Shown here piece after piece: positions 4,703 to 30,454 of a DNA stretch of 47,348 nt (the stretch's first letter is position 1; each line of letters starts with the position of its first letter). The position numbers were made by a program, and so were the translations under genes. A model generated the notes under the pieces. The model was not told the origin of the DNA. It did not search any database and worked only from the letters and a program-made list of their open reading frames with translations. The DNA lies in the IMG/VR virus record IMGVR_UViG_3300037796_000062, positions 1 to 47,348 of that record, one strand, 5' to 3'. This DNA comes from a virus.

Positions 4703-6115
4703 TCACCACCCTGATATTCCCGGTATGTCATCGGTATAGTTGATGACATAGCCGACTGGCGGGTGCGCTGTGAGATGATACGCGCCTATTGCCAAACTCA
4801 TCACGCAGTCTTGCACCAGGTTGCGATCATCCCATTGGTACCCCATCAGTTCGCGACGCTCCTGTTCTGTCCATTCGGCCTTCAGTGTGCCCTGTTCGAG
4901 CAACAATTGCAACGCCTGAATAGCCTGCACCTTGCTCTTGCTACTCGTGACAAACGGATCAGCAGGCACGGCAAGATTTTCAATTAGCGGGTCGCCGATG
5001 CCGTTGCTTTCAATCACGAGTTTTCCAGGATAGTGGTTCCATGCCTGCTCTATGTGCTGCTGTATGACCGGATACGGCAGACGCTCAAGGCGCTCGTGAT
5101 AGACGCGCTGCACCGGCTGTACTGACACGTCGAACACGTTGATCACGGTAGCATCCTGCCTACGCCCAACGTCTACACTCAACAGGTACAGACCGCCAGA
5201 GTAAAATGGCTGCTCGCCCACGGCGCCGTGCGTGGCATTAGCGATGCCCTCTTCGCTGAACACCGCCAGCCCGGACATCACGAAATCGCATTCAAACTCC
5301 GCCGCCCATTGCTGAGAGGTGTACTTCGGACGCTCCTCAAGGTACCAAGCGGCCTGCTCGTGCGGTACGCCCGCCGCCTGCTCTTCTGGCGTGTAATAGC
5401 GTGGGCAATGATGCCAGGGATGCACGAAGTAATGAAAGCCGCTCTGCTGCCCATACAACTCGCTAAACAGGTTGCCGCGCCCGTTCGGCGTGCTACCGAC
5501 CACCAGGCGCCCGCCCTGGGCTAGTGCCGGGCTGATGGATTGGTATATCTCCTCGTCATACGCAGCATAGGCAAACTCGTCAAGGTAGACGATGTTGGCT
5601 GCGTAGCCACGGCCCGCTGATGGGTTGGCAGGTAGTGAGAGGATGCGCGAACCATTCGCGAACTCCATCTCGCTCTGGTTCCGCTTGCGGAGTGCAGGCG
5701 GGTTCCTCAAGTTGTGATAGGCCACAAAGCAATAGCGCAGCATGTTGACGGCGAGCGCCTGATTACGGCTCACCAGGAGTACCGTGCTTTGCGCGTCGTG
5801 AATAGCGGTGTACAACGCCTCGATTGCGAACACCTGAGAGAAACCGATCTGGCGCGCCTTGAGCACGAACCGGCGCGGCTCCTCGTAGGCATCGAGGTAT
5901 GCCGCCTGATAGTCGTATGGCTCGAAGGGTATCAAACCACGCACCGGGTGCACGAGCATCGCCTCATTGCGCGCCCATTCCAGAGGCGTAGGCACACTCT
6001 CACCCGTCGCCTGTAGTGCGGCGCTGTTCGTTAGCGGCAATAATGGCGCCGATGGTTTCGCCCGGTAGGAGCTTGTGGAGGAGTTCAATTGATTTGGTAA
6101 CGCTATCAAAGTCAT
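4703..6115 (-). CDS. terL: Terminase large subunit
   Basis: This is the ATP-driven packaging motor and nuclease. In the 470-residue frame the Walker A-like motif is ARQIGFS (87-93), Walker B is IVYLDE (175-180) and the coupling motif is VGSTPNG (206-212). The C-terminal RNase H-type nuclease has candidate acidic residues in LLSVDVG (D315), LVIESNG (E369) and LVQDCV (D436). The first 40 residues overlap the small-terminase gene and are low-complexity. A GTG at codon 41 (VPTPLEWARNEAM), just past the small-subunit stop, is a credible alternative start. Confidence 0.92.
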   Translation of the reverse strand: MTLIALPNQLNSSTSSYRAKPSAPLLPLTNSAALQATGESVPTPLEWARNEAMLVHPVRGLIPFEPYDYQAAYLDAYEEPRRFVLKARQIGFSQVFAIEALYTAIHDAQSTVLLVSRNQALAVNMLRYCFVAYHNLRNPPALRKRNQSEMEFANGSRILSLPANPSAGRGYAANIVYLDEFAYAAYDEEIYQSISPALAQGGRLVVGSTPNGRGNLFSELYGQQSGFHYFVHPWHHCPRYYTPEEQAAGVPHEQAAWYLEERPKYTSQQWAAEFECDFVMSGLAVFSEEGIANATHGAVGEQPFYSGGLYLLSVDVGRRQDATVINVFDVSVQPVQRVYHERLERLPYPVIQQHIEQAWNHYPGKLVIESNGIGDPLIENLAVPADPFVTSSKSKVQAIQALQLLLEQGTLKAEWTEQERRELMGYQWDDRNLVQDCVMSLAIGAYHLTAHPPVGYVINYTDDIPGISGW

Positions 6116-26094: not shown

Positions 26095-26125
26095 TGTTGC
26101 ACGTTTGTTGCACATATGCTATAGT
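26095..26125 (+). promoter_or_regulatory. Promoter with direct repeats before the actin-like gene (candidate parC)
   Basis: TTGCAC (26097), a 17-bp spacer and TATAGT (26120-26125), preceded by TGC, form an extended -10 promoter. TGTTGCAC occurs twice exactly 11 bp apart (26095, 26106), over and beside the -35 box. This is how ParR-type proteins bind repeats in their own promoter, so this may be both operator and centromere. Confidence 0.6.
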
Positions 26126-26161: not shown

Positions 26162-27118
26162 ATGCACGCGTATGGGTATAATGGCGGCTATGGGTACACC
26201 AAACTGATCAGCCTGAGCAATGGAGAGGAGGTCTTCAACGTCTCGTTTCCCTCGATGATCGCTCCCGCGTCGCGTGCGGTTGCAGGCGCCCTGGAACGGG
26301 CTACAACCGTCACGGTGGGCGGGTCTGAGTATTGGGTGGGGATAGACGCCGAAATGGCTGCACACCCGCTCACAGACCTGTCTGAAGCGCGCTTGACAAG
26401 TCCCGTGCTTATCCCCGCGATGGTCAAGCACGCGACGGCGGGAATAAGCGATGCGGGCACCCTGGTGACGGGCCTACCAGCGCATCAGGCAGAGAATGAG
26501 GAGTACGGGCGGGCGCTGGCAGCACGATTGCGCGAGGCGAGTGCTCTGTGGGAGGGCGATATCACGGTCATCGCCGAGCCGGTTGGGTTGCTGTATAGCC
26601 TACTCCTGGATAATCACGGCAAAATGACGGGCGATACAGCACTCAAGGGCAGCGTCGCCGTTGCCGATATCGGGCACCTCACGCTGGACGTGTCCGAGGT
26701 GCAGAAAATGCGCCCCGTGAGCACGGGTATGGACGCCCGCGAACTTGGCACAGCGCAGCCGCTCAAGGCTATCCGCTCGTTTCTATCGAGTGCGTTAGGC
26801 CGTGAATTGACACTCTACCAGACTGATCAGGCAATACGGACGGGCGGCGTCACGATTGCAGGCCAGTTTGTGAAACTGCCGTCTGGATGGGATACGCCGC
26901 TCTATAGGCACGCCGAAACCATCGTATCCTATTTAACTGAACGATGGGGCAATGGCAAGCGGTACGACGCGATTGTTATCGGCGGCGGCGGTGCAGAACT
27001 GCCGCAACTCACGACAGCAATCCAGGCGAGATACGGGCACGCCGTCATCGTGCCAGAGCCGCAAATGGCAGTCGCTCGCGGGTATGCGCGGCTCGCGGCC
27101 CGGATTGCGGCGCAATGA
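26162..27118 (+). CDS. ParM/Alp-like actin homologue
   Basis: The 318-residue product has the actin-fold ATPase motifs: phosphate 1 YNGGYGYTK at the N-terminus, phosphate 2 VAVADIGHLTLDV in the middle, and the adenosine motif DAIVIGGGGAELPQL near the C-terminus. Such proteins polymerise to segregate plasmids or to position phage DNA. The usual Asp of phosphate 1 is replaced by Asn (N7), which may slow ATP hydrolysis. The start downstream of the -10 box was chosen; a longer frame would begin inside the promoter. The gene overlaps its partner gene by four bases. Confidence 0.82.
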   Translation: MHAYGYNGGYGYTKLISLSNGEEVFNVSFPSMIAPASRAVAGALERATTVTVGGSEYWVGIDAEMAAHPLTDLSEARLTSPVLIPAMVKHATAGISDAGTLVTGLPAHQAENEEYGRALAARLREASALWEGDITVIAEPVGLLYSLLLDNHGKMTGDTALKGSVAVADIGHLTLDVSEVQKMRPVSTGMDARELGTAQPLKAIRSFLSSALGRELTLYQTDQAIRTGGVTIAGQFVKLPSGWDTPLYRHAETIVSYLTERWGNGKRYDAIVIGGGGAELPQLTTAIQARYGHAVIVPEPQMAVARGYARLAARIAAQ

Positions 27119-27414
27119 TAACAGGATTCCGGCTCTCTCCAGAGATGCGCGCATTGTTACGCCGCATCGGCGGTGGGAACATTGCAGCCGGATTGCGGGC
27201 GCTTGTGGTCATTGGCGCGCATCACGCTGGGCAACCTATCCAGGGGCTTGATAGAGAGGCGGCACACGCATTGAAAGAGCCGCTAGACGACGCCACACGC
27301 ACCGAATTGAAGCGCGTCATGAGTGCGCCACAGCGCTACACAGCGCCACAGGCAGCGACCGAACAGCACGACGATGATGATGATTTCCCTATCGATGTGG
27401 GGATGCGATACTAG
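27115..27414 (+). CDS. ParR-like partner of the actin homologue (99 aa)
   Basis: The ATG overlaps the actin-gene stop (ATGA). The product starts MITGFRLSPEMRALLRRIGG and continues GLRALVVIGAHHAGQPIQGL, a layout similar to small ribbon-helix-helix or StbB-type adaptors, then has an acidic tail with an Asp run. A paralogue (28430) follows a truncated actin remnant, so the pairing is seen twice. It probably binds the TGTTGCAC repeats and represses the promoter. Direct homology to ParR is not certain. Confidence 0.6.
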   Translation: MITGFRLSPEMRALLRRIGGGNIAAGLRALVVIGAHHAGQPIQGLDREAAHALKEPLDDATRTELKRVMSAPQRYTAPQAATEQHDDDDDFPIDVGMRY

Positions 27415-27424
27415 AAGAGGTATC

Positions 27425-27649
27425 ATGAGCGAACACACACAACACCTGTACGCTGCTGCATTGTTGGCACGAAACATGGACACAAACGATGCTGGATTTG
27501 CAGTTATCCTATTTATATCAGCGAATGACACAGACGCGCATAAACACGCGATACAACAAGCATATGCGTCGTTCCCACCCACAGAGGGGTATGCGTATCA
27601 TAATGTAAGGGTCATTCAGGCTCCTGATCACATGGTAAACTTGGATTAG
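27425..27649 (+). CDS. Hypothetical protein (74 aa)
   Basis: The start at MSEHTQHLYAAALLARN follows AGAAGAGG. The product is a compact alpha/beta protein (GFAVILFISANDTDAHKHAI). No motif recognised. It lies between the two copies of the segregation module. Confidence 0.5.
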   Translation: MSEHTQHLYAAALLARNMDTNDAGFAVILFISANDTDAHKHAIQQAYASFPPTEGYAYHNVRVIQAPDHMVNLD

Positions 27650-27661
27650 CGGGAGGGGACT

Positions 27662-27859
27662 ATGATAGAAGATCTATACAACAAATTGGACGAACATCAG
27701 GAGGAGTCCGGTAGGTTATGGGATGCATTCCGCGCCGAGCCATATGCGCACGATTTGATGGAAGCGGCAGAGTTGCAAGACTGGTATGTCGCGGTGTACC
27801 GGGGCGCAATATTTGTCTGCTCTGCGCTGATTGAGCCAGGCATATTGGTTCCTGTTTAA
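27662..27859 (+). CDS. Hypothetical acidic protein (65 aa)
   Basis: MIEDLYNKLDEHQEESGRLW opens an acidic helical protein with an AELQDWYVAVYRGAIFVCSA beta segment. Its leader GCGGGAGGGGACT is nearly the same as those of the next two genes. Family not recognised. Confidence 0.5.
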   Translation: MIEDLYNKLDEHQEESGRLWDAFRAEPYAHDLMEAAELQDWYVAVYRGAIFVCSALIEPGILVPV

Positions 27860-27877
27860 TTGAGGCGGGAGGGGACT

Positions 27878-28150
27878 ATGGAAGTATTTTCAAGTGCTAT
27901 TGTAGCCACCGGGCTAGACGAAGAGATGGCAAATGAAGTGAGGTTCGTGCTTATGAAGCAATTTGGGGGTGTTAATTCTAGGGGCTTTGGGTTTGCAATC
28001 GTTCAACTTCATGACGAGCCTAAATTCTCTATCATTGCAATGGATAAATCGAAGGAATCAGATCCTCATCTTGGGCGCTTTATATCGCTGCACGATGTGA
28101 AATTCTGGTGCGATGGGTATCTGGCGGCATGGGGACGAGGCGACAACTAG
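27878..28150 (+). CDS. Hypothetical protein (90 aa)
   Basis: The start at MEVFSSAIVATGLDEEMANE follows GCGGGAGGGGACT; an earlier in-frame start lacks such a site. The product is alpha/beta, with GFGFAIVQLHDEPKFSIIAM and a C-terminal helix (HDVKFWCDGYLAAWG). Function unknown. Confidence 0.5.
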   Translation: MEVFSSAIVATGLDEEMANEVRFVLMKQFGGVNSRGFGFAIVQLHDEPKFSIIAMDKSKESDPHLGRFISLHDVKFWCDGYLAAWGRGDN

Positions 28151-28166
28151 AGGCGGGAGGGACACT

Positions 28167-28430
28167 ATGCACCTACAGCACAAAGAGGCCACCGCAACGC
28201 AGGCCGTGCAGGAACTCGCAGCTGAACGGCTGTATATTGACGCGAAACAAACCATGCTCACGGCGGGCGCATCTACCGTTATTGGTGGTGGCGGCGCCAA
28301 TCTGCATCAACTGACCGCCCCTATTCTGCGGACATTCCCCCACGCCACCATTGCACCCGACCCGCAGAGCGCCATACCACGCGGTTATGCGCGCTATACG
28401 CGGCGCCTTGAGCAGCAGGAGGATGTGTGA
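28167..28430 (+). CDS. Truncated actin-like remnant (C-terminal part, 87 aa)
   Basis: The second half aligns with the C-terminus of the actin homologue at 26162: VIGGGGANLHQLTAPILRTF and PDPQSAIPRGYARYTRRLE against VIGGGGAELPQLTTAIQARY and PEPQMAVARGYARLAARIA. The first 45 residues (MHLQHKEATATQAVQELAAE) are helical and not clearly derived from actin. Phosphate motifs 1 and 2 are missing, so it cannot be a normal ATPase. A clean start with GGGAGGGACACT and an overlap with an intact partner gene suggest it is still expressed. Confidence 0.7.
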   Translation: MHLQHKEATATQAVQELAAERLYIDAKQTMLTAGASTVIGGGGANLHQLTAPILRTFPHATIAPDPQSAIPRGYARYTRRLEQQEDV

Positions 28431-28786
28431 TGGCAAAGCGCAAAAACGCGGCGTATTTTTATGCGAGCGAGGAATTGCGCGCTGTGCTCTGCGAGGCCGG
28501 GAGCGAACTGAGCGCCGCCGCTCGTGCACTGATCGTCGTCGGGGCCTATCATGCCGGGATGGATGTGTCAGGCTTGAGGCGCGAGTTTCACGCGGCGCTG
28601 GCTGCTGACCTGGCGCCAAATGTGCGAGACCACATCGCGCAGGTTGCGCGGCGAATTGACGAAGGCCGCCCGCCGCCGCGAGAGATCACGCTCGGGCCTC
28701 CCGCGAGCCCCCGCGAGCCCCCGCGAGCCCCCGTAAGGCCGGAGGATGACCCGTTGAGCGATGTAGGGATTGATGTTGACGAGTAG
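28430..28786 (+). CDS. Paralogue of the ParR-like protein (118 aa)
   Basis: The ATG follows AGGAGG and overlaps the upstream stop (TGATG). ASEELRAVLCEAGSELSAAA and ARALIVVGAYHAGMDVSGLR match the RALLRRIGG and LRALVVIGAHHAGQPIQGL parts of the protein at 27115. Both end in acidic tails containing D-x-G. A Pro/Arg linker (PASPREPPRAPVRP), encoded by short DNA repeats, separates the parts. It likely binds DNA as its paralogue may. Confidence 0.6.
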   Translation: MAKRKNAAYFYASEELRAVLCEAGSELSAAARALIVVGAYHAGMDVSGLRREFHAALAADLAPNVRDHIAQVARRIDEGRPPPREITLGPPASPREPPRAPVRPEDDPLSDVGIDVDE

Positions 28787-28787
28787 A

Positions 28788-28890
28788 GCTATGCTATGCT
28801 AGTCCACAGAGAGGCGTGCTGCCCTGCGTGACCAGGGCACTGCCGGAGGGACACACCGGCAGCTGCGCACCAGCCCCATCATAGCATAGA
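28788..28890 (+). other. Multi-branched RNA/DNA structure upstream of a membrane-protein gene
   Basis: Arms CTATGCTATG (28789-28798) and CATAGCATAG (28880-28889) form a 10-bp closing stem. Inside are GTGC/GCAC (28816-28819 with 28867-28870) and two hairpins: TGCCCTG/CAGGGCA (28820-28839) and CTGCCGG/CCGGCAG (28840-28862). The loop of the last contains GGAGGGACAC, an exact copy of the downstream gene's ribosome site. It could be a leader riboregulator or a recombination or protein-binding site. Confidence 0.55.
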
Positions 28891-28904
28891 TACGGAGGGA
28901 CACT

Positions 28905-29597
28905 GTGCAACTCAACAACGTCGAGTACTCGAAACAACAGAGCGTTTATGAACTGGCACAGGAGCCGCCGCGCCTTGACGCCCGTGAAGCCGCGCTCGCG
29001 GTGGGTGTGACGTGCCTTGCTGCCCTGGTGGGCGCCCTAGGCGTGCTCCTGTTCGGCGCGTCGTTTCCGATGCATGGCCCCGGCGGTGCGCTTCAGTTCG
29101 CGGGGATGCTCGCGGGAAGCACGTGTTTGCTCGCGTGGTGCTTTGTGATGCTGTTTGTGTGGCATCATATTGAGAAATGGCGCGCTGATCTACGCTACGA
29201 ACGTGAGCGCCGCGAAGCGGTTCTGGAGGCGCATTGGAATACTCAGGGAGTTGTGACAACAGAGGTATTGAGCGAGACGACGATCACTGCCGACAATCCA
29301 GGCCAGATCATCCTTGCCGCGCTCGCTCTACACCAGCGCCGCAACGACGCCACGCGCCCGTATAGCGTGCGAGCGCTCCAGAAGCCGCTGTTTCTCTCGC
29401 TCAACGCGCCTGCCTTCGGCGGCACGCGACAACTGCGCATCGGGCAGGCTGCCAGCGAGCAGGAAGCGCAGCGCCTTGCAGAGTTATTCGCCCGCTGTGG
29501 CCTGATTAGCGGGCGCCGTGAGAAGGCAGCAGGCGAATGGACGGCACAAACAGTATCAGACGTGCTCAATAAATTGCTACCGGAGTATACCGTATGA
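28905..29597 (+). CDS. Two-helix membrane protein with cytoplasmic domain (230 aa)
   Basis: The GTG start follows GGAGGGACACT. Two membrane segments are seen: AALAVGVTCLAALVGALGVL (about 27-48) and MLAGSTCLLAWCFVMLFVW. A charged helix (HHIEKWRADLRYERERREAV) and a soluble C-terminal domain of about 120 residues follow, including LAELFARCGLISGRREKAAG. It overlaps the next gene, which is also membrane-anchored, so the two may form a complex. Function unknown. Confidence 0.6.
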   Translation: MQLNNVEYSKQQSVYELAQEPPRLDAREAALAVGVTCLAALVGALGVLLFGASFPMHGPGGALQFAGMLAGSTCLLAWCFVMLFVWHHIEKWRADLRYERERREAVLEAHWNTQGVVTTEVLSETTITADNPGQIILAALALHQRRNDATRPYSVRALQKPLFLSLNAPAFGGTRQLRIGQAASEQEAQRLAELFARCGLISGRREKAAGEWTAQTVSDVLNKLLPEYTV

Positions 29598-30454
29598 GTG
29601 ACGAATTGTTGACTATTGCCCGTGCTGAACTCCCTGAAGAGTGGCGCCGCGTTGACCTGGTGCAGGCGCTCTCTGTCCACGGAGTAGACATAACAGACAG
29701 GCAGGCGAACGAAAAAATCAAGGTATGGAAAACGGCGGGCTACATTGATCATATTGTAGACGGCAAGCAGCACCGCTACGCGTGGCGGGAGGAAAGCGCC
29801 GTGTCAGCGACAAGCCAGACAGAACCACAGATGAGCGCACACGCGCCCGCGAGCGTGCACACGCAACGCACGTACCGCATCCCTATGCCCTGGATTGTAG
29901 CAGGCATCGCGTGTGCGCTCGTGGTAGCTGCTGTGGCGTCGTTCGCGGCGCTCACTCGACAGAATGAGCCAGTATCCGTACAATCGACACCCACAACGGC
30001 GCCCACCGCTACCCCGACAAATGTGCCGATGGTCGCGGCATACTACGCACCAGGCGGGGAGTATGCACAGGATATCCCCATCGGCGGGCCCGTGACTGGG
30101 ACATACGGGCACTATGTCCAGATTGACGGCCATCTCTGGATAGAGGCGCCCGATCTCACAGAGCCGACGCCAGCGCCAACACAGACGCCGCACATTGTTG
30201 TGGTAGGGCAGCCTGCACCGCCTGTGGAGGCACCCGCGCCAACCACTACCGCCGCGCCAATACTGCCGCCCGACACCGTGCGAACATCAGCAGGCGTTGA
30301 GGTTGAGGTAGCGGCGACGGCAACGTCGCATGGCTGGACGATTGCATGCAATGCTGATGAGTGCCGGTGCTTCAGCGGCGCTGTGCCAGATGGCTACGGC
30401 ATAGCACGCCAGAACATTGTGCCAGAGATATGCATGCTGGCTGTGAAGCCGTAA
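29594..30454 (+). CDS. Membrane-anchored protein with N-terminal winged-helix-like domain (286 aa)
   Basis: Residues 1-70 (LPEEWRRVDLVQALSVHGVD, then ANEKIKVWKTAGYIDHIVDG) resemble a small winged helix. A single membrane segment, PWIVAGIACALVVAAVASFA, lies at about 97-118. The outer part is Thr/Pro-rich (STPTTAPTATPTNVP and similar), with a Cys-containing C-terminal end (CNADECRCFSGAVPDGYG). This is the topology of ToxR-like one-component regulators. The acidic residues and lack of a tested HTH leave other readings open. Confidence 0.55.
   Translation: MSDELLTIARAELPEEWRRVDLVQALSVHGVDITDRQANEKIKVWKTAGYIDHIVDGKQHRYAWREESAVSATSQTEPQMSAHAPASVHTQRTYRIPMPWIVAGIACALVVAAVASFAALTRQNEPVSVQSTPTTAPTATPTNVPMVAAYYAPGGEYAQDIPIGGPVTGTYGHYVQIDGHLWIEAPDLTEPTPAPTQTPHIVVVGQPAPPVEAPAPTTTAAPILPPDTVRTSAGVEVEVAATATSHGWTIACNADECRCFSGAVPDGYGIARQNIVPEICMLAVKP

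Follow-up and report, generated by a model that had tools for sequence, protein, structure and literature searches.

In ParMRC systems of the R1 type, a gene for an actin-family ATPase is followed directly by a small adaptor gene, and iterons (~11 bp in R1 parC) lie upstream. Partition proteins of the actin family are also encoded by Bacillus phages such as SPO1 and Troll (PHROG 691). The CGP3 prophage of Corynebacterium glutamicum carries the AlpC/AlpA/alpS system, in which the adaptor AlpA is reported to inhibit AlpC polymerisation and, when bound to DNA, to stabilise AlpC filaments (PMC5539076). Phage mosaicism by illegitimate or homeologous recombination is among the questions discussed in PMC2327257. 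A literature search on orphan ParR or truncated ParM found nothing relevant in the library searched.

The locus described here lies in a virus record of 47,348 bases (the whole stretch analysed; hereafter, the window, in whose numbering positions are given). The window and its phage relatives are probably phages of Chloroflexota, because the cellular relatives found are in that group. Likeness to R1-type ParMRC consists of the gene order, the ~11-bp upstream repeats, and ParM structures that are matched by the profile of the ALP family, whereas the locus differs in being phage-borne, in the small membrane-protein gene that follows in the phage cluster, and in its adaptors, for which no sequence or fold match to ParR was detected using Pfam, PHROG, and Foldseek. 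With AlpC/AlpA/alpS (PMC5539076) it shares a phage-borne actin, a DNA-binding adaptor (a putative role for the partners P1 and P2), and an operon promoter with repeats that are known or candidate binding sites. This likeness is one of arrangement, and a membrane gene is not described in CGP3. The actin ALP1 belongs to PHROG 691 ('partition protein'; 7e-34, spanning residues 5–316), although it is only 24–26% identical to these phage proteins in a comparison made by the actin protein alone. We consider the window to carry a putative new ParMRC/Alp-like phage locus, with putative filament-driven segregation. As in phage mosaicism, a module swap appears to have combined one low-homology junction with one in diverged homologous sequence and to have left a chimeric frame; here, however, it is a segregation module and a membrane-protein module that meet at the scar, and no new mechanism is implied.

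The ALP1-P1 operon and its upstream repeats

ALP1 (26162..27118, plus strand, as are all genes below) encodes an intact actin-like partition ATPase of 318 aa that scored over the Pfam cut-offs for ALP_N (6e-10) and MreB-like_C (4e-10), and the profile of its family reached ParM 3js6 (2e-8) and Ta0583 (5e-8). Judged by this full-length signature, ALP1 is a true actin-family partition protein. The gene directly downstream, P1 (27115..27414), overlaps ALP1 in an ATGA (27115–27118) and encodes a small adaptor partner of 99 aa with an acidic tail (DDDDDFPIDVGMRY). An adaptor gene directly 3' of the actin was also found in other operons (L018, L020, L022, L024, L028, and others), where the two genes overlap or almost do so. 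ALP1 showed an omega of 0.125 when compared to the related phage contig L008, and the omega of P1 was 0.11. Three small frames of the recipient lineage follow (27426..28150; 27426–27649, 27662–27859, and 27878–28150), with blastn matches to L004, L016, and L003/L007, respectively.

Beside the actin promoter lies an 11-bp direct repeat (TGTTGCACGTT/TGTTGCACATA; 26095..26116). Among periods of 8–15, the 11-bp period exceeded all others in the window and in all six close phage relatives tested, a result that shuffled sequences matched in 0–1.6% of cases. Repeats of this period are present upstream of ALP1 and of ALP3, the actin of other phages in the cluster, and their sequences differ by actin type. 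The 26095–26116 repeats are candidates for centromere-like iterons at the operon promoter, to which P1 would bind. Type-specific repeats were seen 5' of each actin of the phage cluster (e.g., L005, 6690–6735), and 11-bp-period repeats also occur upstream of the actin in L018 and L020.

Two origins of the 28167–28430 frame

The original prediction described the segregation module as duplicated, with a whole second partner gene and a second actin cut to a 45-residue C-terminal piece on a new N-terminus. The four frames concerned (starting at 26162, 27115, 28167, and 28430) are present on the plus strand, with starts and overlaps as described, i.e., the ATGA between ALP1 and P1, and a TGATG at 28428–28432 (an overlap of one base) between the 28167 frame and the second partner gene, P2.

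The 28167–28430 frame comprises 87 codons. A search with the 87-residue protein returned four viral contigs that matched only its first 53 residues (76–78%), and in these contigs the matching residues are the start of MP1, which is encoded behind the actin and partner genes. MP1 is a protein of ~223 residues (longer with an upstream start) with two hydrophobic segments, and its gene is complete at the same place in five related phage contigs (L003/L008, L004/L006, L005, L007, and L016). Positions 28164–28279 are 91–94% identical at the nucleotide level to the MP1 5' end of L005 and L004, with L003/L008 and L007 aligned likewise, and in four of the four relatives compared base by base through the locus, the alignment to the window ends at exactly 28279. 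The first 37–38 residues are nearly letter-identical between the chimera and MP1. Thus, the N-terminus is not new: 37 residues are the head of the neighbouring MP1 gene, and the 5' half of the frame (28167..28279) corresponds to MP1 codons 1–38 preceded by MP1's own ribosome site. Compared to L008, this head carries two non-synonymous and no synonymous changes over 37 codons, too few to separate selection from drift; the lack of synonymous differences suggests recent sharing of this stretch, albeit over only 37 codons.

The 3' half (28280..28430), which we call the ALP2 tail, consists of ~50 codons starting from IGGGGA. Translated positions 28272–28418 are 53% identical to ALP1 residues 270–318 (E 2e-10, far beyond chance), the tail shows ~40–60% identity to actin tails in general, and the IGGGGA and RGYAR motifs are retained. 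The part of the original prediction that recognised the C-terminal tail of an actin therefore stands, with a length of ~50 residues instead of 45. The ATPase core (phosphate-1, connect-1, and phosphate-2 motifs) is absent from the chimera, which has the adenosine-motif tail only, and by its motif content the chimera is derived from an ALP/ParM ATPase and is not a member of the family. At the join (marked by a slash), the window reads ...GCATCTACC-GT/TATTGGTGGTGGCGG..., MP1 continues as GT/GCTTGCATTCC, and ALP1 has ATT-GTTATCGGCGGCGG; MP1 and the actin tails have ~2 bases in common at this junction. On these alignments, the chimeric frame is MP1 codons 1–38 joined in frame to an actin tail.

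Given its ribosome sites (GGAGGG before 28167, and AGGAGG for P2 just before 28430, inside the chimera), the chimera may well be translated. Good ribosome sites and overlapping genes had been taken as signs that the remnant is still produced; however, the first site was inherited with the MP1 head, and the presumed donor operon would have contributed the overlap with P2, so that neither is a sign of retention for a function. A chimera that works as a regulator, the tail of which caps ALP1 filaments, titrates P1/P2 as a decoy, or controls the intact copy, would be consistent with the open frame, the plausible ribosome sites, and the two motifs retained in the tail. Its N-terminus, taken from MP1, argues against such a role, as does the AlphaFold prediction (run on an alignment of both parental families), which contains helices only, without actin strands or a stable fold (pLDDT 62.9, pTM 0.34). 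Residues 30–43 scored <50, and the junction and the IGGGGA stretch were poorly predicted. The tail also departs from the family consensus at 6 of 22 well-conserved sites, including one invariant alanine replaced by proline, compared to 0–4 sites in most intact members and to 7 and 9 sites in the two most divergent ones; these departures would fit either decay of the tail or a divergent parent. In addition, a comparable tail elsewhere (L030, see below) has no start codon. No positive evidence for a cap, decoy, or control role emerged, and we regard a working regulator as very improbable; most likely, the chimera simply records an ordinary episode of gene shuffling.

The structure prediction of the 28167 protein had been set beforehand as a refuting check. 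In the sense that no actin subdomain forms, this check went against the original prediction, and the chimera as a folded actin subdomain is unsupported, even though the sequence of the tail is actin-derived.

Homology breaks around P2 and MP2

Homology to the four relatives, lost after 28279, returns at 29799–29816 (blastn), inside the gene that starts at 29594. Between these breaks, the window has, in place of most of MP1, a block (28280..29798, ~1.5 kb) that spans the ALP2 tail, P2, MP2 with its leader, and the beginning of the gene at 29594. P2 (28430..28786; 118 aa, tail EDDPLSDVGIDVDE) is an intact second adaptor that matches P1 with 41% identity over 64 residues (E 2e-8, likewise far beyond chance), and the earlier description of a second, related, and whole partner gene was confirmed. 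Accordingly, the proposed alignment of the two actins and the two partners found both pairs to be related (53% for the tail, 41% for the partners). P1, P2, and distant partners all have an acidic C-terminus that closes with a D-x-G-(I/M)-like motif. In the AlphaFold model of the P2 monomer, residues 1–9 are disordered and are followed by helices at 14–23 and 29–41, two more helices, and a disordered acidic tail. The adaptors had no Pfam or PHROG match, and a Foldseek search with the P2 fold gave no significant match; the predicted fold is compatible with a ParR-like ribbon-helix-helix adaptor.

A tandem duplication within this phage was rejected: the synonymous sites of P1 and P2 are saturated (identity ~40%), and residue identity between the tails of ALP1 and ALP2 is only 53%. 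The module that had appeared to be duplicated is better described as an imported block with a different actin.

MP2 (28905..29597; 230 aa) is a two-helix membrane protein, 36–38% identical to MP1 along its whole length and 97% identical to a protein of L009. Upstream of it is a leader of 118 bp (28787..28904) with an inverted repeat (CTATGCTATG/CATAGCATAG). In L009, MP2 and the same leader (5884–6000) sit behind a different actin/partner pair (ALP3/P3), and MP2 is again beside the 286-aa gene. P2 and MP2 are both open, full-length genes. The 29594 gene (29594..30454) encodes a one-helix membrane protein of 286 aa, the N-terminal ~70 residues of which are only 37–44% identical to the relatives, whereas the remainder shows 85–90% DNA identity. 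This gene is itself mosaic, with ~70 foreign N-terminal codons and a resident remainder. Across sister phages, its N-terminal part is variable, and the membrane segment and the Pro/Thr-rich remainder are kept. In the MP2 leader, the ribosome-site sequence of MP2 (CGGAGGGACAC) is present twice (28844 and 28893), and some GC-rich stretches resemble hairpins; the leader gave no match to Rfam in the window and is possibly a translational control element.

Seven phage contigs (including the window) carry either ALP1 (window, L003, and L004) or ALP3 (L005, L007, L009, and L016) in the actin slot and either MP1 or MP2 in the membrane slot, in several combinations. As these combinations indicate, the locus is a site of module exchange, at which actin/adaptor pairs and membrane-protein modules are swapped independently. 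Relative to the sister phages, homology is sharply lost and then regained, and the two halves of the junction frame trace to separate genes. The 28167–28430 frame is thus very probably the left scar of such an exchange, i.e., ordinary phage mosaicism with the chimera as a by-product. The recipient would have had the order ALP1 - P1 - small genes - MP1 - 286-aa gene and would have recombined with a donor operon of the order ALP2 - P2 - MP2 - 286-aa-type gene; since distant relatives regularly have the actin gene first and the partner second, we interpret the block as the last portion of such an operon. The left crossover would have been illegitimate, joining MP1 codon 38 (GT/G) to the ALP2 codon before IGGGGA (GT/T) with little sequence match, and the right crossover would have occurred in homologous sequence, where the 286-aa gene is conserved. 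Assuming this direction of exchange, the body of MP1 would have been lost and P2 and MP2 gained, both presumably still in use. The MP1 start would now drive the chimera in frame into the old end of ALP2, which would provide P2 with its ribosome site and start overlap, and the chimera would be idle except perhaps in aiding P2 translation. Against a plain scar, only one join in three would be in frame by chance, and a functional chimera would likewise be expected to show an open frame and good ribosome sites, as this one does. No intact ALP2 donor was found among the viral contigs, phages, and genomes searched. A tempting story of a domesticated actin fragment is nevertheless replaced by a traceable event.

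The chimera junction had no second copy among the viral contigs searched, so that the event is known from one contig. A metagenome assembly error that joined two phages would account for this single occurrence, and the right junction, being in homologous sequence, would be the easier one to misjoin. However, the visible match at the left junction (~2 bases in common) is too short to cause a k-mer misjoin, and MP2 is found next to the 286-aa gene in L009 too; we therefore consider an assembly error quite improbable.

Actin tails elsewhere and the orphan adaptor

Other shortened actins were found by search among Chloroflexota genomes (L030, L027, and L047). In the Chloroflexaceae MAG SM2_1_1, an actin tail of 179 bases (L030, 3934–4112) without an in-frame start codon stands before a different intact partner. 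Over these 179 nt, 98% of its bases match the actin of L028 (3578–3756), which is intact and comes from the same MAG, and the partner genes of the two loci differ. The AGGAGG site lies within the actin tail both in the window and in L030. In L027, the actin lacks everything before residue ~145 and precedes a partner, and L047 is an actin tail alone. In L060, the actin is split, apparently by one missing base. Actin tails ahead of intact partners thus occur more than once, and the L030 tail, which has no start codon, shows that their formation is not confined to the window and that translation of them is not required. The simplest reason for keeping them would be that they hold the ribosome site of the partner.

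A special breakpoint at the GGGG-coding stretch was also considered. Several truncations fall near it (window, L030, and L047, with the one-base frameshift in L060), but tails of this length are close to the lower limit of detection and the cases are very few, and we treat the proximity as an observation only.

Beyond its origin in an exchange, P2 could be a functional orphan adaptor that either binds ALP1 and thereby alters its filaments or suppresses a competing type-2 system, with the actin tail kept only for P2's ribosome site. This proposal is compatible with the scar interpretation and adds a function to it. The gene is complete and has the C-terminal acidic DxGI-type motif common to P1 and distant partners, the AGGAGG site recurs in the L030 tail, and the CGP3 adaptor AlpA is reported to affect AlpC filaments (PMC5539076). 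On the other hand, P2 could be a mere passenger of the MP2 exchange, and its identity to P1 is only ~40%, which makes a function of this kind conceivable but rather unlikely. By analogy with AlpA, an orphan P2 that contacts ALP1 would be the most interesting possibility. A broader proposal, which we regard as a long shot, is that actin tails are repeatedly retained before intact unpaired adaptors (window, L030, and perhaps L027) because orphan adaptors are useful, binding the filament of a co-resident or rival actin and blocking or re-routing it. If true, orphan adaptors would represent interference between segregation systems. The modular locus, with its independently swapped actin/adaptor pairs and membrane-protein modules, provides natural material for asking whether actins and adaptors can substitute for one another and whether a resident filament system is disturbed by an orphan adaptor.

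A small membrane-protein gene is often located 3' of the actin/partner pair (window 28905–29597, L020, L021, and L060), which hints that the three genes form a membrane-linked unit. In Candidatus Viridilinea mediisalina (L027, 912–1622), the N-terminally shortened actin is followed by what appears to be a fusion of a partner-like domain with a multi-helix membrane protein.
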